A DNA stretch of 64,000 nucleotides from Chloroflexota bacterium (GTDB lineage: Bacteria > Chloroflexota > Anaerolineae > Anaerolineales > Villigracilaceae), in contig JACRLB010000046.1 of the NCBI GenBank assembly GCA_016235445.1, positions 1-64,000 on the forward strand, read 5' to 3'. The position numbers and the translations under genes were made by a program. Each line of letters begins with the position of its first letter. Within the stretch, counting starts at the first letter, position 1. Positions 6,127 to 55,673 of this stretch are shown here, piece by piece. Under the pieces are notes generated by a model, which was not told where the DNA came from, ran no database searches, and was given only the letters and a program-made list of their open reading frames with translations.

Positions 6127-6395
6127 TTTCTTTTTGTACGCGGAGTTGATGGACGACACGGATTCTTTTTGAAGAAACAGAAAAAATCCGTCCGTTCCGT
6201 GTATTCCGTGTAAAAAAATATTTAATCGAGCTAAAGCAAATGGGCTAAAATTGCTCCAATTTAGTAGACTTTATCGGTAATTAGAAAAAACGTCCCGAAG
6301 GTTATCGTCAGACCCTTAATTTACTCGAAACAAACCTTCGGGACGGTGCTTGTATAAATTGCTCCAATTTAGTGTTGTCCCAAAAGGAGAATCCC
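6127..6395. other. Intergenic region with repeat and 108-bp direct-repeat unit
   Basis: No gene is visible. An imperfect palindrome built of ACGGA-type words covers about 6158-6215 (relative of the core of the mobile element at 7642-7771). Downstream, the 18-bp sequence AAATTGCTCCAATTTAGT occurs at 6248-6265 and again at 6356-6373, exactly 108 bp apart. Between the two copies is a hairpin with 13-bp arms, CGTCCCGAAGGTT (6291-6303) and AACCTTCGGGACG (6333-6345). Confidence 0.6.
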
Positions 6396-6821
6396 ATGGC
6401 CGAGTTGAAAACCAAAATGACCGAAGCCAGCGTCGAAGATTTTTTGAACGCCATCAAAGATGAGCAAACCCGCAACGACTGTTTCGAGATCGTGAAGATC
6501 ATGAAGCAGGTGACGAAAGCCGAGCCAAAGTTGTGGGGGACGAGCATCGTCGGCTTCGGCAGTTATCATTACAAAAGCGAGAGGAGCAGGCAGGAAGGCG
6601 ATTGGCCGTTGACGGGCTTCTCGCCGCGCAAACAAAACCTGACTTTATACATCATGGGCGGTTTCGACCCGCACAAAGATTTGCTGAAAAAACTTGGAAA
6701 ATTTAAAACAAGCGTGGGATGTTTGTACATCAAAAAACTTGCGGATGTGGACAAAAAGGTCTTGAAGGAACTCGTCAACGCGTCTGTGAAAGTGATGAAG
6801 AAAAGTGTATCAGCGAGCTGA
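6396..6821 (+). CDS. DUF1801 domain protein (YdhG-like)
   Basis: The 141-residue product has the DUF1801 pattern: an N-terminal helix with VEDFLNAI, then PKLWGTSIVGFGSYHYK, the arginine-rich turn and the LYIMGGFD strand. The family is small, cytosolic and has no firmly assigned biochemical role. ATG 6396 was chosen because AAAAGGAGA precedes it; an upstream ATG at 6372 lies in the second 18-bp direct repeat. The last codons and the following bases include a small inverted repeat (ATCAGCGAGCTGAT). Confidence 0.82.
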   Translation: MAELKTKMTEASVEDFLNAIKDEQTRNDCFEIVKIMKQVTKAEPKLWGTSIVGFGSYHYKSERSRQEGDWPLTGFSPRKQNLTLYIMGGFDPHKDLLKKLGKFKTSVGCLYIKKLADVDKKVLKELVNASVKVMKKSVSAS

Positions 6822-6838: not shown

Positions 6839-7609
6839 ATGAGCCTGCAAAAAGACCCCGAAGGATTTGAGAAAAGAATCCTGCACAAATTTTTAGACTT
6901 CAAAGATAAACGCATTCTGGAAGTTGGATGCGGCGAGGGGCGGTTGACCTGGCAATACGCCGCCGCTTCCTCCTTAACCGTTGGGTTTGATCCTGACCAT
7001 TCGGCATTGCGCGTGGCCCGGGCAGATGCGCGAGATAAATCTCGCGATACCTATTTTGCGAGCGCAAGCGCGAGCCACATTCCCTTTTCCAAAGAGACAT
7101 TCGATATCGCCATCCTGGCATGGTCACTCTGATGAATGCAACACGAGAGCATGGTCCATGCTCTGGATGAAATTCGCAGAACGCTCAAGCCAAACGGCAT
7201 CCTCATTGACTTGCGGCCTGTGGAGGATAACTGGTCGGTGGAGATCGTTTCGTCGGCGGGCTGGCAGGTATCGGGTAGGTTGAGCGATGTGCCTGCGGGG
7301 GTGGCAGATGATGAGGCGGCGTTCAATGCCATGCGGGAGGTCGAATCCAAGGGGTGGTACATCAAAAAAGAAGAAGAGGAATTTGCCTTCTTTTATTATT
7401 GGGATACCCCGTCTGAGATGAAGGAGTTCATGGAGGCCGAATGGGAGGATTTTGAAAAACTCGAAGAGGATGTTTTCCGAAAGACAAGCTCGCTGTGGGC
7501 CTCTGCCAACGCGGATGCGCGCGTGCGGGTGCGCGTAAAAATGCTGATCACGAAGTGGATAAGATGCAGGTCAAATTGTCAATTTGACCTGCATGTACTG
7601 ATTATTTGA
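6839..7609 (+). CDS. Class I SAM-dependent methyltransferase with two in-frame TGA codons (possible selenoprotein)
   Basis: Residues 1-97 hold the SAM motif I LEVGCGEGR, the motif II region VGFDPD and FDIAILAWSL. Codons 98 and 99 (7130-7135) are TGA TGA, after which the same frame continues with MQHESMVHALDEIRRTLKPNG and a normal methyltransferase C-terminal half to 7609. The spacing between the WSL strand and the LKPNG strand looks undisturbed, so nothing but the two stops is wrong; TGA is one base from the Cys codons TGT/TGC. A hairpin at 7146-7164 and selB at 43924 make selenocysteine insertion possible. Alternatives are a recent pseudogene, sequencing error, or two separate translations with restart at ATG 7136. 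Another oddity is a palindrome at 7029-7046 inserted in frame. AGAGGA lies 4 nt before ATG 6839. Confidence 0.75.
7029..7046. repeat. Palindrome inside the methyltransferase gene
   Basis: CGCGAGATAAATCTCGCG is a perfect palindrome encoding part of ARDKSRDT. The reverse complement of its surroundings closely matches the intergenic sequence at 63279-63301 (TATCGCAAGATTTATCTTGC), so it is a copy of a dispersed repeat. Confidence 0.65.
7146..7164 (+). promoter_or_regulatory. SECIS-like hairpin just after the tandem TGA
   Basis: AGAGCATGG / CCATGCTCT form perfect 9-base arms around a single T. As RNA the loop would be GUC or GGUCC on a 7-8 bp stem. The stem starts 10 nt after the second TGA, and the loop G lies 18-21 nt from the two stops. 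Bacterial SECIS elements sit directly downstream of the UGA and need a G (often GU) in a small apical loop at about this distance. The hairpin could also be a chance palindrome within coding sequence. Confidence 0.4.
7565..7593. repeat. 29-bp perfect palindrome at the methyltransferase 3' end
   Basis: Arms TGCAGGTCAAATTG (7565-7578) and CAATTTGACCTGCA (7580-7593) are perfect inverted repeats around one T. It lies within the last codons of the methyltransferase frame. It has no following T-run, so it may be an operator, an attenuator or an inserted repeat rather than a terminator. Confidence 0.6.
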
Positions 7610-13872: not shown

Positions 13873-16800
13873 ATGACCGACGGACATTGTTTCATCAGTT
13901 ATTCCAACTCAGATGGGTTGGACTTTGCCACCAAGCTATCCGATGAACTTGAGGGCGGACATCCGTTCACGAGTGTTTGGTTCGATAAGCGCGATTTGAA
14001 ACCTGGCGATAACTGGGACGACCAGATTTCATCTGCCATTCGTGGATGCAAGTGTCTCGTGTTTGTGCTGACCGAAGACAGCACATCCGAAGGCTCAGTC
14101 TGCAAGGATGAATGGACATGGGCGTTGAAATATAAGAAACCTGTCATTCCCATTCGTTTGCACACAAAAGCTGAATTGCCATTTCGTTTGGGAAGTCGTC
14201 AATTTATTGATTTCGTTTCAAATTTTGAAGATGGGATTAGCAAACTACGCAAGTATTTTACTTATCTTGATTCACCTCAAGGAATTTTAGAAGAACTCAA
14301 ATATCGTCTCACCGATGCACAACGCGATTTACGCCGCGCCCGTTCTGATGACCAGCCTCGGATTAGAGCAGAACTCGACGAATTGACCGAGCAGATTAAA
14401 CGTCAGGAAGAGATCGTTAGGAATCCCAAAGCGGCGGAAGGGAAGACCGAGAAGAACATCCAGAGCGGACTCGAGCGCGAGCGTCAGCCAGAGAAACCTG
14501 TCGCGAGGAAAACATCCACGCGCTTTATCAATCCGCAGCCAGCAATCGCCCCAATATATTTTCAAAATCGTTTTATAGAAACTAACCAAATTGCTGAATT
14601 TTTGGAAAACGACACGCAACGCTTAATGACCATCGTGGGACGCGCGGGCGTAGGAAAATCCGCACTGGTCTGTCGCCTGCTCAAGGCGTTGGAAAGAGGC
14701 GAGCTTCCCGATGACCTCGGCGAGATGAAAGCCGACGGGATCGTCTATTTGAGCGAGACGGGCAGTCACAGGGTCAACTTTGCGAACGTCTTCGCGGATC
14801 TGAGCAAACTCCTGCCTCCTTCGGAGGAGACCGCTGAGCGGCTGGAGGGAATCTATAAGAACCCGCAGACGTCCACAGGCGATAAAATGCGCGCGCTGTT
14901 GGATGCCTTCCCCAGCGGACGTGTGATCCTGCTGTTGGATAACTTTGAAACCCTGATCGACCCCGAAAGCCTGAGCCTGCGTGACAGCGAATTGAGCGAC
15001 GCACTGAATGCCCTGCTCGGCGGACAGCACCATGCCGTGAAAGCGGTCATCACCACCCGCATCGCGCCGCGTGACCTGGCGATGGGCGAGCCAGGCAGGC
15101 AGCATCACCTGAGTTTGGATGAAGGACTCGAATCGCCTTACGCGGAAAACGTCCTGCGTGAAATGGACGCGGACGGACGCGTGGGACTCAAGACCGCGCC
15201 TGATGCGTTGCTGAACAAAGCCCGCGAAAAGACACGCGGCTACCCGCGCGCGCTGGAAGCGTTGTATGCCATCCTGTCGGTTGACCGTTACACCACGCTC
15301 GAAGAACTGCTCGAGCTCAGCCTGCCCGATGAAGTGGTGCAGAAACTGGTGGGCGAAGCCTTCAACCGCCTTGACCTGAGCGCGCAAAAAGTGATGCAGG
15401 CGCTGGCTGTGTACAACCGCCCCGTCAGCCCCGCCGCAATTGATTACCTGTTGCAACCGCATTTGCCAAGCATTGACAGCGCGCTGGTGCTCAACCGTTT
15501 GGTGAACATGCACTTTGCCCGCCGCGAAGCAGGGAGATATTATTTACATCCTGCGGATAAGGAATATGCTTTCAGTATTATTCCTGAAAAAGATTTAACC
15601 ACGAAGGACACGAAGGTCACTAAGGAAAACCAAGAAGAGGATGAGGGTTTACTCACCATTCAGCGTGAACTTGATTCTTTGCGCTCTTCGCGGTTAAATG
15701 CCTTTACCCAACACGACCTGCTCAACCGCGCCGCGGATTACTTCGCCCAAGCCCGCAAGCCGCGCGCGGAATGGAAAAAACTAGACGATCTCTCCGCGCA
15801 ACTGGCGGAATTTGAATTACGCTGTGAAGCAGGCGATTACGATACCGCTGGCTGGATAATGGGCGAAATAGGTTTTGATTATATGTTTTTCTGGGGGCAT
15901 TATCGATCTATGATTGATATGTATGAAAAATTGCTAGGAAAAATTAAAGATATCCGACTGCGTGGCAAAAGTACAGGTGATCTTGGCTCAGCGTATCGCA
16001 ATACTGGACAAATTTTTAAGGCAATACAATATTACAACCAAGCACTTGAAATCGCGCAAGAAGCAAAGAATCGTGCTGGTGAAGGTGCATGGCTCAGCAA
16101 CCTTGGGGTTACCTACGGCGATTTAGGTAATGCTCGCAAAGCCATCGAATTCCAAGAATTAGCATTAGTCATTTTCCGCGAGATTGGCGATCGTAAAGGC
16201 GAAGCAGCTAATTTAACAGGTCTGGCAAATCGTTACTCTCAACTAGGTGATGGTCGTAAGGCATTCGAGCGCTATGAACAAGCCTTATTAATTGACCGCG
16301 AAATCGGTGATCGTAGTGGTGAATCTATTGACCTTGAAAATATTGGTCATCTTTTGTTGAGCCTCGAAGATTATCAAAAAGCAAAAGAAAATTATCAGCA
16401 AGCCATTCAAATTGCAGATGAAATTTCTTTCCCAGAAACGTCAAGTTGGGCACGTTGGGGATTGGCAAAGTCTTATCTCTTCCAAAATGAACTGGTCAAT
16501 GCCCGCGCCACCATCGAAGCCGCACTTCAATATGATGTGCCGCAATACAATCACAATGCAACCGCCCTGCACGGAATCATCGCATTGCGGCAAGGGGAAA
16601 GGGCAACCGCGCAAGAGGCTTTTACCAAGTCCATTGCGCAGGCGGATGAAATCCTTGCCAAGACGCCCGATTATTATTCCGCGCTGGATGCGAAGGGGCT
16701 TTCGATTTGTGGATTGTTGATTTGCGATTTACGATTGAAGAAGGACGATTTACGATCAGATGCAGTGGAAACGTTTAGGAAGGCGCGGAAGATTGCGCCA

Positions 16801-16917
16801 CATGCGGGGGTGGTTAAGTCCGTGCTGAGGTTGTTTGATGAATTGGTCAAGTGCGATGAGGAGGGGGTGTTGAAAGGGGTGAGAGAGGTGATTGAAGGAA
16901 ACCCGTTGGTTGAGTAG
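13873..16917 (+). CDS. TIR - STAND NTPase - TPR protein (candidate defence/cell-death sensor)
   Basis: The 1014-residue product has three parts. Residues 1-135 form a TIR domain: FISYSNSDG, the BB-loop-like [10 protein letters not shown], and S75xxCKDE80W, where Glu80 aligns with the catalytic Glu of NAD-cleaving TIRs. Residues about 137-185 are coiled coil. A STAND-type NTPase follows with P-loop [10 protein letters not shown] near 255 and Walker B ILLLDNFE near 350. The C-terminus has several TPRs ([20 protein letters not shown], then [18 protein letters not shown]) about 700-870. Such architectures act in bacteria as NLR-like antiphage sensors, with TPRs recognising a trigger and TIR depleting NAD. 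Oddities: a repeat inserted in frame at 15593-15699, a heptamer array at 16703-16757, and the last codons (NPLVE-stop) supplied by a REP-like element. Function is inferred. Confidence 0.88.
15593..15699. repeat. Palindromic repeat inserted in frame in the TIR-STAND gene
   Basis: Outer arms TTTAACCACGAAGGACACGA and CTCTTCGCGGTTAAA are imperfect inverted repeats. The insert encodes lysine/threonine/glutamate-rich residues ([13 protein letters not shown]...) between the NTPase and TPR regions. The same ACCACGAAGGACACGAAG word occurs outside genes at 22011-22031 and 36555-36580. Confidence 0.8.
16703..16757. repeat. Heptamer repeat (GATTTGC/GATTTAC) inside the TIR-STAND gene
   Basis: Period-7 words GATTTGT, GATTTGC, GATTTAC and GATTGAA run through the coding sequence and translate as [19 protein letters not shown], unlike the TPR helices around it. 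Confidence 0.65.
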
Positions 16918-43923: not shown

Positions 43924-45819
43924 ATGAGAGTCATCGGCACAGCAGGCCATGTAGACCACGGCAAATCCACATTAATTGAAGCGCTCACGGGTTCGCATCC
44001 CGACCGCCTCAAAGAAGAGCAAGCCCGCGAGATGACCATCGAACTCGGCTTCGGCTGGCTCACCCTCCCAAACGGCGAAGAAGTCGGCATCGTGGATGTG
44101 CCCGGCCATCGTGATTTCATCGAGAACATGCTTTCAGGCATCAGCGGCATAGACGCCGCCCTGCTCGTCATCGCCGCCGATGAAGGCGTGATGCCGCAAA
44201 CAAAAGAACACCTCGCGATTTTGGATCTCTTGCAGATTCCCGCTGGATTGATCGTCGTGACAAAAACAGACCTCGCCTCCGACTCAGGGTGGCTTGATCT
44301 GCTCGAAGCAGACATTCGCTCCGCTGTGAGCGACACCGCGCTCAAAGACGCGCCCATCGTTAGAGTCTCTGCCAAAACAAAAACAGGGTTCGACAATCTA
44401 ATCTCCCATCTCCAATCTCTCCTCCAAGAAAAACCTGCCCGCCTTGATCTTGGCCGCCCGCGCCTGCCCATTGACCGTGTCTTCAGCATGAGCGGATTCG
44501 GCACCGTCGTCACTGGCACACTCAGCGACGGACATCTTTCCATCGGCGATGAAGTGGAAATTCTACCCAGCGGATTAAAGGGCAGAGTGCGGGGGCTTCA
44601 AACCCATAAGAAAAAAGAAGAAAGAGCCTTTCCAGGTTCGCGCACGGCAGTCAACATCTCAGGCGTGGACACAGAATCCCTGCGGCGCGGCGATGTGGTC
44701 GTTCGACCGAATCAATACCAGTCCACCCGCAGGATCGATGCGCGTCTTCGTCTGCTCAAAGATATTGACCTGTCCATCAAACATGGCGACGAAGTGAAAT
44801 TCTTCGTCGGCGCGAGTGAGACAATTGCCACCCTGCGCCTGCTTGGAAAAGAAGAACTCAACGCTGGCGAAGAAGGCTGGATTCAGCTTGAACTGCGCGA
44901 GCCGCTCGTCACCGTGCGCGGTGACCGCTACATCCTGCGGCGTCCATCACCCAGTGAAACCCTCGGCGGCGGCGTGGTGATCGACCATCAACCCAAGGGC
45001 AGGCATAAACGTTTCGACGAGAGTGTGCTCAAATCTTTGGAATCCCTTGCGCAAGGCTCGCCCGCCGATGTGCTGTTGGAAGCGGCCATGTCGTTGAACG
45101 CCGCATCGTTGAAAGAAATCGTAACCAAATCTCGCTTGGAAGCATCCACCACAGAAACGGCAATAAAGGAACTGCTGGGCAGTGGTCAACTTGTGCTTTT
45201 GGAAGCGGGCGAACCCAACCCCAAAAGTGACTCGCTTGCCATCGCCCTCCCCCACTGGAACGATCTGCGCGGGCGGGTTGAAAATACTCTCGATGAGTTT
45301 CACAGGCAATTTCGATTAAGACGCGGCATTCCCCGCGAGGAATTGAAAAGCAGGCTCAAACTCACGCCGCGTATTTTCAACGCCATCATCAACAGGCTGA
45401 TTGCCGATCACGTGATCACTGATCACTCTCTTTGGATTGCAAAAGCCGGGCATGAGATTCTCTTCCATGGGGCCGAGCAGGCCAGGGTCGAGGAAATGAT
45501 GCGAAGGTTTGCGAAGAGTCCATATGCCACACCCAGCGTCAAGGAATGCCAGGCCGAGGCTGGCGTGGAAATCGTCAACGCGTTGATCGAAACGGGCAGG
45601 CTGATTGCAGTCTCGCAGGATGTCATCTTCCGCAAACAGGATTATGATGAGATGGTCGAAAAAATAAAAGCCGCCATTCGACAAAATGGGCAGGTGACGC
45701 TTGGCGAAGTGCGCGACATGCTGGATACGACCAGAAAATATATTCAGGCGTTATTGGAGCATTTGGATTCCATCGGAGTGACCATGCGCGAAGGGGATGC
45801 CAGAAAGTTGAGAACATAA
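43924..45819 (+). CDS. selB: Selenocysteine-specific elongation factor SelB
   Basis: The 631-residue protein is a translational GTPase: G1 in GTAGHVDHGKST (residues 5-16), the switch region KEEQAREMTIELGFGW, G3 DVPGHRDF and G4 TKTD. EF-Tu-like beta-barrel domains follow (FSMSGFGTVVTGTL). The C-terminal 190 residues are winged-helix repeats (LRRGIPREELKSRLKLTPRI, then GQVTLGEVRDMLDTTRKYI), the SECIS-binding part that EF-Tu lacks. It brings Sec-tRNA to UGA codons marked by a SECIS hairpin. The length is normal for SelB. It overlaps the SRAP gene by 1 nt (TAATG). selA, selC and selD are not in the window, so they must be elsewhere if the system works. Confidence 0.93.
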   Translation: MRVIGTAGHVDHGKSTLIEALTGSHPDRLKEEQAREMTIELGFGWLTLPNGEEVGIVDVPGHRDFIENMLSGISGIDAALLVIAADEGVMPQTKEHLAILDLLQIPAGLIVVTKTDLASDSGWLDLLEADIRSAVSDTALKDAPIVRVSAKTKTGFDNLISHLQSLLQEKPARLDLGRPRLPIDRVFSMSGFGTVVTGTLSDGHLSIGDEVEILPSGLKGRVRGLQTHKKKEERAFPGSRTAVNISGVDTESLRRGDVVVRPNQYQSTRRIDARLRLLKDIDLSIKHGDEVKFFVGASETIATLRLLGKEELNAGEEGWIQLELREPLVTVRGDRYILRRPSPSETLGGGVVIDHQPKGRHKRFDESVLKSLESLAQGSPADVLLEAAMSLNAASLKEIVTKSRLEASTTETAIKELLGSGQLVLLEAGEPNPKSDSLAIALPHWNDLRGRVENTLDEFHRQFRLRRGIPREELKSRLKLTPRIFNAIINRLIADHVITDHSLWIAKAGHEILFHGAEQARVEEMMRRFAKSPYATPSVKECQAEAGVEIVNALIETGRLIAVSQDVIFRKQDYDEMVEKIKAAIRQNGQVTLGEVRDMLDTTRKYIQALLEHLDSIGVTMREGDARKLRT

Positions 45820-52009: not shown

Positions 52010-52397
52010 ATAAATCTCCTTTATTCGAATTGTAATTGCAAGAGTATAAACGTGTTGTTCCTTTAAGTCATCTTTCTATAAATGGTTTTTTAGAGTGGAC
52101 AGCAAACATACATCCAACAATTCAACCTGTCGGGTTTTTTATGAAAACTCATGTAATACAACATCAACAATTCAGACCCTCTTTGTGAAGTATATTTTGT
52201 TAATCTCAATTGACTTTGCATTTTTGTTATGTTATTATTTTATTGCTCCATTCAAAGAAATGAGTGTTTCAAATAAATTCCGGTGTATTGCCGGGCCTGG
52301 CACGACGAGGAGGATACTATTAAAAAAATTACACCATCGGTTATTCGAAAAAAAAACTTCATACGTTTGCATCTTATATTAATTTAAGGAGATGAAG
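52010..52397. promoter_or_regulatory. A/T-rich divergent intergenic region
   Basis: This 388-bp stretch is far more A/T-rich than its surroundings and holds the start signals of both flanking genes. AAGGAG (52387-52392) is the ribosome site of the metallopeptidase. A 95-codon frame at 52095-52382 has no ribosome site or recognisable protein character. A G/C-richer patch, GTATTGCCGGGCCTGG (about 52284), might form a structured leader, but I match it to no known riboswitch. Confidence 0.45.
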
Positions 52398-55300
52398 ATG
52401 AAATCAGTTAAACTATTTCCAAAGTATAGATCAATGCTCAACATACTGTCGGTATTGATTATCATTTCGTTACTAGCGGCAGGGGGAAGTTCAAACGCAG
52501 CGGCAAAAAGTCCTTCACAAGAATCACTCCCAAACGCTGTAAATCAGCAAAAATTAAATCAATGCCTTGGGGCGGAGGGGAATACCACGTACCACCCATT
52601 GACCGGTAATGTCAGTTTTGCGGGGGCCAGCCCGGTTGAGCCAATTCAACAGATCACGGAGGGGTTACAATCTGCTTCTCCGGAAGAGGCGGCGCGGGGG
52701 TATCTGTCTGAGTGTGGGAGCCTGTTTGGGTTGACCGATCAGGCCAACGATTTAGTCATGAACCGCGAAAGGGTGACGGAAGATGGGCGGACTGTGGTGC
52801 GCTTCCAGCAGTATTTTCAGGGCGTCCCAGTCTTTGGCGGGGAACTTCTGATGCAGCTTGGTGCAGGTAATAATGTCATTTTGGTTAATGGCAGTGTGTT
52901 GCCGCGAGTCAAGTTGAACACTCAAGCTGGTGTTGACCCTGCCGCCGCGCAACAGGCAGCTTTGCAATTGGTGGCGGAGCAGTACGGCCTCAGCGCGGAT
53001 GCCTTAAAGGTGAGCGACGCGCAGTTGTGGGTTTATAGCCCTTTGTTGATTGAATCCAAGATTGCGCCGGCGGCGCTGGTATGGCGGATGGAAGTTACGC
53101 CGCTGGAACTGGCTCCGATCCGTGAACTGGTGTTGATCAACGCACATGATGGCAGTGTTGTGTTGGATATCAACCAGGTGGACACCGCCTTGAATCGCCT
53201 GACTTACACAGCAGGTAACACCACTACACGACCCGGCACCCTGGTTTGCAATGAATCCGACCCGACTTGTGCGGCCGGGGATACGGATGCGAAAAACGCC
53301 CATAAATTCGGCGGCGATACGTACAATTTTTATTCCACTTATCACGGCCGTGACAGCCTTGATAATGCTGGTATGTCCCTGATCTCCACCGTGCATTATG
53401 ATACTGCCTATTGCAATGCCTTCTGGGATGGATTCCAGATGACTTATGGCGACGGTTGTACCATCGTGGTGGATGATGTGGTGGCGCACGAAATGACGCA
53501 TGGCGTAACAGAATACGAGTCTAACCTGGTGTATTCCTACCAGTCTGGCGCCATCAATGAATCTTTCTCAGATATTTGGGGTGAGTTTGTGGATTTGACC
53601 ACCACTACAGGCGGCACCGACACAGCCGGAAACAGATGGCTAATGGGTGAAGATACAAGCATTGGCGCAATTCGCGATATGCAAGATCCCACCACGTTTG
53701 GCGACCCTGACCGAATGGGAAGCCCGCTTTACTACACTGGTTCTGGGGATAACGGCGGCGTCCACACGAACAGTGGCGTGGGTAATAAAACGGCTTATTT
53801 AATTACCGATGGTGACACCTTCAATGGATACACCGTTACTGGCATTGGCATCACGAAGGCCGCCAAAATCTTCTACGAAGCTCAGACGAATATCCTTGTT
53901 TCCAATTCGAATTATCATTCGCTCTACGATGCGCTGAGACAGGCTTGCACCACTTTGACCGGCACCAGCGGCATTACAGCGGCGGATTGTACGGAAGTGG
54001 GCGAAGCCGTTCTTGCGACGCAGTTGAATCTCCTGCCCCTGCCTCCCGCGGCCCCTGCAAATGACGCTTTTGCAAGCCCAATCGTTATATCCACTACTCC
54101 TTACACCAACACCCAGGATATTAGCAGCGCCACTACGGCGGGCGACGATCCTACTTTCTCCTGCACTTCGCATAAAGGCACAACTTCGGTCTGGTATCAA
54201 GTCACACCCTCCTCGTCAGGCACGCTTACCGTGGATACGGTCGGCAGTAATTTCGATACCGTGCTTGGCATTTGGACGGGTAGCACTCCGGCCGGGCTGA
54301 CATCGGTGGGTTGCAATGATGACATTGATTACGCTGGCGGCAATTACCAGTCGCGAGTGATCGTCTCTGTCACGGCGGGTCAAACTTATCGTATCGAGGC
54401 GGCAGGCTACTCCGGCGGGGGAAACCTCACCATCCACGCGAGTCTTCCAGTGTCCTCCAATACGCCTACTATTATCGCCCCTAAAGGCGCAACTACCGAC
54501 ACAACGCCAACCTATAAATGGAGCAAGGTAACAGGAGCAACCAATTACCGCTATCAACTCATGAAAGGCGCGACAACCGTATATACAAAGACGGTTTCCG
54601 CAAGTGTCTGTGGGGCAACCACCTGCTCCAGCACACCGCCAAATGTGCTTGGACCTTTCGCGTACAAATGGCGAATTCAAGCAATGGTTGGCGGTGTATG
54701 GAGGGCTTACAGCGCTTATACAGCCTTCACAATATCTCCAGCGACCATTGCCCCTAAAGGCACAATTACGGATACCACGCCAACTTATAAATGGACCAAG
54801 ATTGCGGGAGCAACGCAATATCGCTATCAACTCGTGAAAGGTGCAACAACGATATATACGAAAACAGTTCCCGCCAGCGCCTGTGTAGGGGCAACCTGCA
54901 CAAACACGCCTACAAATGTGTTGGGAGCTTTCACATACAAATGGCGAGTTCAAGCAATGGTGGGCGGGGTATGGGGTACCTATAGCACCTATGCTACTTT
55001 CACTATAAACTCGTCGACTGGTGGATTCGACTCCCAATTCACCAGCGATGCTGCCGGATGGACACCTTCGAGCGGTTCGTGGAGCGTATCCGGTGGCAAT
55101 TATCATTCACCTGGTATTGCCTCAAAAGCTGTAACAACCGTGCATAGTAACAGCTACAGCACTCTTACATACGAGGCCCGAATGATGCGGACAGGGGCAT
55201 GTATAAGCTGCGTGAATTCCCTTTATTTCCGTGGCATACCAAACCCATTAATGTCCAACAACAACTGGAATACCGCCTTTAGATTCTCGTATACCAATGA

Positions 55301-55673
55301 TGGATACTGGCAGTTCCTGTATATTAATAACGGGGTTTACTATTCATTGGTGGACTTCACCCCCACATCCGCCATCGCTCAAAATGGATGGAATACGCTA
55401 AAGATCGTTGCAAATGGAACCTCCATTAAGCTCTACATCAACGGTTCTATGATGGTTTCCGGTACGGCTACCGGTTTTAACCCAACCGGGAATGTAGGAG
55501 CTGGCTTTTACAGCAGCTATGGCGCAAGTGAAATAGGATATGTAGATTGGGCCAAACTTAATCTAACCGGTCTGCCCTTTGAATTTACGCCGGAAGAAGA
55601 AGGCGCCTTGACATTCGATCTATCGAACGAAACGCTTCTTCCAATGGAAGGAGATCCAAATATTGCTCCATAA
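52398..55673 (+). CDS. Secreted multidomain M4 (thermolysin-like) metallopeptidase
   Basis: The 1091-residue preproprotein has a signal peptide (LSVLIIISLLAAGGSSNAAA), an FTP/PepSY-type propeptide (RFQQYFQGVPVFGGELLMQL) and the M4 catalytic domain: HEMTH near residue 364, the third ligand Glu in GAINESFSDIWGE, and the His region DNGGVHTNSGVGNKTAYL. After the catalytic domain come a PPC-like domain (SSSGTLTVDTVGSNFDTVLG), two copies of an Ig/Fn-like repeat (TPTYKWSKVTGATNYRYQL and TPTYKWTKIAGATQYRYQL) and a concanavalin-like C-terminus (YFRGIPNPLMSNNNWNTAFR). It is an extracellular protease with probable substrate-binding modules. ATG 52398 is placed correctly behind AAGGAG; 52392 is too close. 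Confidence 0.93.
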   Translation: MKSVKLFPKYRSMLNILSVLIIISLLAAGGSSNAAAKSPSQESLPNAVNQQKLNQCLGAEGNTTYHPLTGNVSFAGASPVEPIQQITEGLQSASPEEAARGYLSECGSLFGLTDQANDLVMNRERVTEDGRTVVRFQQYFQGVPVFGGELLMQLGAGNNVILVNGSVLPRVKLNTQAGVDPAAAQQAALQLVAEQYGLSADALKVSDAQLWVYSPLLIESKIAPAALVWRMEVTPLELAPIRELVLINAHDGSVVLDINQVDTALNRLTYTAGNTTTRPGTLVCNESDPTCAAGDTDAKNAHKFGGDTYNFYSTYHGRDSLDNAGMSLISTVHYDTAYCNAFWDGFQMTYGDGCTIVVDDVVAHEMTHGVTEYESNLVYSYQSGAINESFSDIWGEFVDLTTTTGGTDTAGNRWLMGEDTSIGAIRDMQDPTTFGDPDRMGSPLYYTGSGDNGGVHTNSGVGNKTAYLITDGDTFNGYTVTGIGITKAAKIFYEAQTNILVSNSNYHSLYDALRQACTTLTGTSGITAADCTEVGEAVLATQLNLLPLPPAAPANDAFASPIVISTTPYTNTQDISSATTAGDDPTFSCTSHKGTTSVWYQVTPSSSGTLTVDTVGSNFDTVLGIWTGSTPAGLTSVGCNDDIDYAGGNYQSRVIVSVTAGQTYRIEAAGYSGGGNLTIHASLPVSSNTPTIIAPKGATTDTTPTYKWSKVTGATNYRYQLMKGATTVYTKTVSASVCGATTCSSTPPNVLGPFAYKWRIQAMVGGVWRAYSAYTAFTISPATIAPKGTITDTTPTYKWTKIAGATQYRYQLVKGATTIYTKTVPASACVGATCTNTPTNVLGAFTYKWRVQAMVGGVWGTYSTYATFTINSSTGGFDSQFTSDAAGWTPSSGSWSVSGGNYHSPGIASKAVTTVHSNSYSTLTYEARMMRTGACISCVNSLYFRGIPNPLMSNNNWNTAFRFSYTNDGYWQFLYINNGVYYSLVDFTPTSAIAQNGWNTLKIVANGTSIKLYINGSMMVSGTATGFNPTGNVGAGFYSSYGASEIGYVDWAKLNLTGLPFEFTPEEEGALTFDLSNETLLPMEGDPNIAP

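Follow-up and report, generated by a model that had tools for sequence, protein, structure and literature searches.

A candidate di-selenocysteine methyltransferase family with tandem in-frame UGA codons in Chloroflexota

Consecutive selenocysteine (Sec, U) residues have been reported for PDI_e of haptophyte and SAR algae, where they lie in a GUGUU motif and are presented as the first such case (PMC7539508). The present analysis concerns a bacterial gene found in a stretch of 64,000 nucleotides from a Chloroflexota genome (assembly GCA_016235445.1, contig JACRLB010000046.1; hereafter the window), which encodes an S-adenosylmethionine (SAM) methyltransferase with two adjacent in-frame TGA codons. 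It resembles PDI_e in that two consecutive Sec would be made from tandem UGA codons. However, PDI_e is a eukaryotic protein with a thioredoxin fold, whereas the window gene encodes a methyltransferase and carries a bacterial in-frame hairpin 18–21 nt after the pair; eukaryotic Sec insertion sequence (SECIS) elements lie outside the coding region and are not tied to one UGA. Membership of PDI_e, which would imply a thioredoxin-like fold and GUGUU, was rejected, as only methyltransferase domains could be identified and the motif at the pair is SLUU.

Methyltransferases with Sec have been described before, and PMC2375036 lists one of algal origin. The methyltransferase domain-containing double selenoprotein MduS (NF045649) shares with the window protein a methyltransferase domain and two Sec residues, but its motif is CxxU (PMC13188914, Table 1) rather than UU, and its profile spans 338 positions compared to about 242 residues here. 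Identity with MduS was rejected on a score of 38.1, where 380 is required, as were identities with the MTase/UXPK-star double selenoprotein (NF047649; 22.4, with 460 required) and with CpaM (NF043040; 57.7, with 180 required). The selenoprotein form of arsenite methyltransferase ArsM (NF008823) is likewise a class I SAM methyltransferase with Sec, and the key Cys of ArsM sits in the loop after strand beta-4. The protein is not an ArsM: in an alignment with locus L169 the cysteine of the SNC motif is matched by W95, and thus lies three positions short of the pair, the only ArsM-type model listed (NF040539) scores 25.2 with 240 required, and the genome of the window carries a separate ArsM (G000:C9). 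Two ArsM-like reading frames in another genome (G039:C61:12987-13580 and G039:C14:64508-65218) contain one in-frame TGA each and may represent further selenoproteins or simply gene ends.

Neither the UU motif nor such a methyltransferase is present among the 119 prokaryotic families and subfamilies of Table 1 of a 2026 review (PMC13188914), and no NCBIfam model (June 2026) reaches its cut-off on the protein. The family is thus unmatched in both the review table and NCBIfam; this comparison rests on open-licence literature, and an earlier description may exist.

The reading frame and its conservation

The gene and its pair of candidate Sec codons are located as follows.

6839..7609, + strand: putative di-selenocysteine class I SAM methyltransferase gene (reading frame, domain match, relatives)
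7130..7132, + strand: putative first Sec, U98 (UGA codon 98; all 75 distinct members of the family have Sec or Cys here)
7133..7135, + strand: putative second Sec, U99 (UGA codon 99; likewise Sec or Cys in all 75)

In a first-pass annotation of the window, made from the sequence alone, this frame was described as open but for TGA TGA at codons 98-99, and reading of the frame bears this out: the sole interruptions are the two triplets listed, and the open reading frame (ORF) terminates with a TGA at 7609. A simple ORF finder splits the gene into two ORFs. The part conserved in the family stops near 7564, and the final 14 codons form an extension that is absent from the aligned relatives.

At codons 98-99 all 75 distinct family sequences contain only Cys (C) or Sec, in the combinations UU (51 sequences), UC (15), CU (8) and CC (1). 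The best maximum-likelihood tree, calculated with the trait columns masked, requires 17 changes among these pair states; if only its well-supported branches are considered, a minimum of 12 changes for UC, 11 for UU and 4 for CU is still required. Across 32 diverse sequences, with identities as low as about 30%, neither the pair (taken as Sec/Cys) nor G30, G32 and G34 of the SAM-binding GxGxG motif varies.

Among the 61 nearest genomes, 30 contain a member of the family in which the pair includes in-frame TGA (counting G059, the locus of which, L050, is CU), and one further nearest genome (G011) carries the Cys-Cys version. A class-wide draw gave matches at E<=1e-20 in 46 of 396 genomes, and all 48 matches have one or two in-frame TGAs. 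The same holds in a draw of 400 genomes from the whole phylum for every match as strong as E = 2.9e-30 or stronger, 51 in number and from 46 genomes; the 22 weaker matches among those listed (E >= 1.6e-20) have no in-frame TGA, and the four of them that were read at the pair show CF, CH and two gaps, hence neither CC nor a Sec pair. Class-, phylum- and second-phylum matches without a locus of their own are known only by their number of in-frame TGAs.

The family occurs mostly in Chloroflexota genomes, with some members from a second phylum. The 14 close relatives that are named bear the label Anaerolineales or Chloroflexi in 12 cases, Brevefilum fermentans in one and Solirubrobacterales in one. 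In the phylum of genome G792, the record of which bears the label Solirubrobacterales (placed in Actinomycetota by NCBI), TGA-containing members were found in 8 of 396 genomes, G792 among them, and seven of these members (L158-L164) are mostly Cys-Sec (CU 5, UC 1, UU 1). The G792 member itself (L059 / L136, JAUQWL010000076.1) lies on a 3-kb contig, is 79% identical to the window protein and has the same C69-peptidase neighbour; this contig may be a misbinned piece of Chloroflexota DNA. At L111 (G206:C16) one genome has two members of the family, separated by about 4 kb; the search table gives a single TGA for either of them. Viral contigs yielded 20 loci, all of them generic methyltransferases with 24–32% identity, in a search with two patterns, of which the one covering the pair was written with Cys and may have missed UGA copies; plasmids yielded one generic partial match only.

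The hairpin and the selenocysteine machinery

The second element of the locus is a hairpin that begins 10 nt past the second TGA.

7146..7164, + strand: putative bacterial SECIS hairpin within the coding region; stem of 8 bp, loop GUC with its G at 7154 (folding, covariation)

The first-pass annotation had described a perfect 9+9-base hairpin with a GUC loop; its position and loop (7154-7156) are correct, but the stem is shorter, with 8+8 bp formed by 7146-7153 and 7157-7164. The loop G was rightly placed, 18 nt after the second TGA and 21 nt after the first. A published model of bacterial SECIS elements, as given in the review, specifies a loop of 3–9 nt, a stem of 4–16 bp, a G in the first two loop positions, a distance of 16–37 nt from the UGA and a minimum free energy of at most -7.5 kcal/mol (PMC13188914). 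The hairpin agrees with this model on every count, with a loop of 3 nt, a stem of 8 bp, G as first loop base, distances of 18 and 21 nt, and a minimum free energy of -12.9 kcal/mol for the 39-nt stretch after the second TGA. Its fold has a z of -2.89, and 2 of 200 shuffled sequences are equally stable. On both strands of the window, 19 of 2271 TGA triplets (including these two) are followed at 16–37 nt by a perfect stem of at least 8 bp with a suitable loop, while the joint requirement of an in-frame TGA flanked on each side by 80 or more open codons and of a stem of at least 5 bp leaves only this pair and a single antisense site within selB. The hairpin alone is little proof, and it is its conservation in relatives that carries the case.

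Conservation was measured in 66 sequences, consisting of 61 distinct 60-nt windows (windows identical to an earlier one were removed before counting) and 5 divergent ones; the set leaves out L050, which has no hairpin in register, the CC sequence L023 and the seven second-phylum sequences. The 8-bp stem is paired in 95.3% of 488 cells in the 61 windows, and the inner 7 pairs in 98.1% of 462 cells in all 66 sequences; in neither case did any of 500 shuffles reach as high. In the 66 sequences, paired double changes occur at all 7 core pairs, covariation amounts to 0.251 compared to 0.126 in shuffles (0 of 500 reach it), and control registers obtained by sliding are at most 59.7% paired. The number of pair types stands out less, as 17 of 500 shuffles reach it as well. 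The column of the loop G is invariant in the hairpin alignment.

Codon usage in the stem points in the same direction. The His codon of the stem is CAT in 57 cases and CAC in none, compared to 23 CAT and 18 CAC for the His five codons upstream (p 1e-8, kinship ignored), and the Ser/Gly codon and the Ala codon of the stem switch together in 59 of 60 sequences (p 3e-16, kinship ignored). In L097 both residues are altered (Ala and Gly) and the stem is retained. Given the codon bias and the joint switches, the needs of the protein by themselves do not account for the conservation of the hairpin. The only CC homologue, L023, has neither the hairpin nor the MVHAL residues.

A gene for the Sec-specific elongation factor is present in the same window, as the first-pass annotation had claimed.

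43924..45819, + strand: selB, Sec-specific elongation factor (TIGR00475, 340.6 bits, cut-off 242.25)

That annotation had also proposed a check for selA, selC and selD, and all three could be identified in the genome (98% complete): selA at G000:C28:29187-30278 (463.8 bits), selD at G000:C24:68775-69710 (348.6 bits), and selC as a tRNA-SeC with anticodon TCA. By its sequence, selD is probably itself a selenoprotein gene, as it contains an in-frame TGA (L038:2404-2406, - strand) followed by a hairpin, read by eye, of the form AGCGC-GGAU-GCGCU. The GG of its loop lies 17 nt after the TGA, and the GG(UC) of the methyltransferase hairpin likewise lies 17 nt after the second TGA, which makes selD a control from the same genome with matching spacing.

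The conserved tandem UGAs, the interchange of Sec with Cys, the covarying hairpin that follows the bacterial SECIS rules and the presence of selA, selB, selC and selD together argue that the methyltransferase very probably represents a family of working di-Sec enzymes, with both stops decoded as Sec near the expected active site. We consider the Sec-Sec identity of codons 98-99 highly likely. The earlier suggestion of a di-Sec protein is thus supported at the sequence level by the homologues, the Sec genes and the hairpin.

Fold, proposed decoding and possible role of the putative Sec pair

The protein has the properties of a class I SAM methyltransferase, i.e. a domain match above cut-off (PF13649, 65 bits, cut-off 27), the GxGxG motif and a Rossmann-like fold in the model. 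An AlphaFold model, built with Cys for Sec and a 24-row alignment, has a mean predicted local distance difference test score (pLDDT) of 89.9. Among solved structures it comes closest in fold to class I methyltransferases, with 2yr0 at Z 20.2, a root-mean-square deviation of 3.6 and 213 aligned residues, and several others tie with it; the structure searches return the general fold only. TleD (5gm1; E 8.9e-16), AtmM (6uv6) and TTHA0223 (2yr0, function unknown) share fold and domain with the window protein, but have no Sec: AtmM has His-His and TleD Cys-His at the place of Sec-Sec, as the pair falls on these residues in two of the four profile alignments shown. In the model residues 98-99 follow strand beta-4 (88-93), in a loop which we take to be the one lining the methyl-transfer site in this fold. 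In certain related methyltransferases of small molecules this loop bears His-His, so the two selenolates probably face the methyl donor.

In UC members the hairpin lies at the proper distance from the first UGA and in CU members from the second, and the same hairpin appears to serve either UGA; in UU members one element would then have to serve both in succession. We propose that SelB with Sec-tRNA(Sec) uses the single hairpin twice, first with UGA98 in the A site and the loop 21 nt ahead, and again one translocation later with UGA99 in the A site, the loop 18 nt ahead and its loop-proximal GG 17 nt ahead, as in the genome's own selD. The product would be a full-length SAM-dependent methyltransferase with adjacent U98-U99.

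As to function, a far-reaching possibility is that catalysis by a novel class of selenium-dependent methyltransferase centres on Sec-Sec, made with one SECIS used twice; the two selenolates would take the place of His-His beside SAM and either clamp a soft substrate, be it a metal(loid) or an organometal, or accept the methyl group themselves and hand it on. We give this reading as a whole a probability of a little under two in five. The role that we consider most likely is narrower, namely that the Sec pair holds or activates a metal(loid) or chalcogen compound, as a soft substrate, so that it can be methylated; it is tentative to nearly the same degree. The first-pass annotation had named metal(loid) binding or a redox role, likewise as conjectures.

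The alternative that survives best accepts a di-Sec protein but sees the pair as a redox switch, by opening and closing of a vicinal diselenide, rather than as a participant in methyl transfer. It agrees with the view, given in the review, that most uncharacterised selenoproteins are likely redox proteins (PMC13188914), and with the replacement of Sec by Cys at either place and also at both, as CC would be able to form a vicinal disulfide. The position of the pair after beta-4, aligned with His-His of AtmM, speaks against it, as does the lack of a thioredoxin-like partner among 20 neighbour ORFs scanned, and we consider it somewhat less likely than a role in methyl transfer.

Two further alternatives are very improbable. 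The locus could contain two genes, the first ending after 97 codons at the TGA and the second restarting at ATG 7136, directly after the pair; a simple ORF finder indeed calls both. However, this codon is ATG in only 30 of 61 sequences (ATT 15, ATC 8, GTG 4, and CTG, TTT, GTC and ATA 1 each), the UC, CU and CC variants read straight through one or both positions, and a division at this point would sever the Rossmann domain just behind strand beta-4. Equally improbable is that TGA is read as another amino acid, by nonspecific readthrough or a reassigned code: UGA readthrough does occur in bacteria, but only Cys alternates with TGA, the hairpin covaries, selA, selB, selC and selD are present, and a TGA ends this same ORF.

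Least probable of all is a dead gene or a sequencing error with the TGAs as disabling mutations, which consecutive stops would normally signify and which relatives known mostly from metagenome-assembled drafts might invite, but which appears largely refuted by conservation, as TGA recurs at these codons in numerous separate assemblies, including the single-contig G021 and G026, with conserved sequence downstream and replacement by Cys only in the sequences read. An assembly error at the pair is very unlikely, because orthologues in these separate assemblies share it. Further disabling mutations, named in the first-pass annotation as grounds for rejecting its proposal, are mostly absent from relatives, but not entirely: L022 (G017:C2) has an apparent frameshift near the N-terminus, L163 has no recognisable N-terminal part, and the match of L027 ends at residue 172, inside its contig.

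The frameshift in L022, which retains UU and is one of the 75 family loci, is among several observations that weigh against a Sec-Sec methyltransferase as proposed. The hairpin of L099 folds poorly (-3.9 kcal/mol), and L050 (CU) has no hairpin in the same register. A sign test of paired changes on the tree was underpowered, with 5 independent pairs on starred branches, of which 3–4 were concordant and 0 discordant, and was not significant (median p 0.25). In the survey of Sec machinery, which covered the 61 nearest genomes, the UU genomes G034 (700 contigs) and G038 (93% complete) gave no SelA match, the tRNA-Sec match of G038 was weak (48.8 bits), and G013, G017, G031 and G035 had no tRNA-Sec above cut-off; draft assemblies account for some of these gaps, but perhaps not all, and the remainder may be real. 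The model is less certain around the pair, with a mean pLDDT of only 74 for residues 91–100, and the other two profile alignments place TS (3sm3) or a gap (1xxl) there. Neighbouring genes vary outside the closest relatives, and no pathway, substrate or partner can be read from them.

Genomic neighbourhood and significance

The gene directly upstream of the methyltransferase encodes a DUF1801 protein.

6372..6821, + strand: DUF1801 (PF08818) protein gene, directly upstream of the methyltransferase (ATG 6396 is the likelier start)

DUF1801 genes are found just upstream of the methyltransferase in most close relatives with flanks examined, and in close relatives only; they occur in 2–3 copies in L046, L051, L053, L061, L062, L066 and L070 (L053 and L062 being the same contig), and none is found near L054. 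DUF1801 is a probable operon partner of the methyltransferase in close relatives. A scan of 20 neighbour ORFs, drawn from loci both close and remote, gave a mixed set of annotations including SH3, UPRTase, YegS-type kinase, glyoxalase, XdhC, glycosyltransferase and Ham1 proteins, among others. One gene cluster recurs beside the family in four loci (L044, L047, L048 and L053), with PF08239 (bacterial SH3) in the scanned members of L044, L047 and L048. No metal-resistance-like gene was found among the 20 ORFs, so the proposed kind of substrate follows from chemistry and position only.

Elsewhere in the window, 13873-16917 encodes a 1014-residue protein with TIR, NTPase (NACHT/STAND-like) and TPR parts, of a kind seen in bacterial defence, and 52392-55673 encodes a 1093-residue thermolysin-like (M4) metallopeptidase with a lectin-like C-terminal part.

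If decoding proceeds as proposed, the family would provide a natural bacterial system for the insertion of two Sec in a row from one SECIS, and its UU, UC and CU members would be natural variants with which spacing and SelB recycling can be tested. It would also add a widespread methyltransferase family that plain ORF finding splits in two. A vicinal diselenol would be placed beside a methyl donor, a chemistry which to our knowledge is found in no described enzyme, and the question of which substrate is methylated by a Sec-Sec methyltransferase becomes testable.
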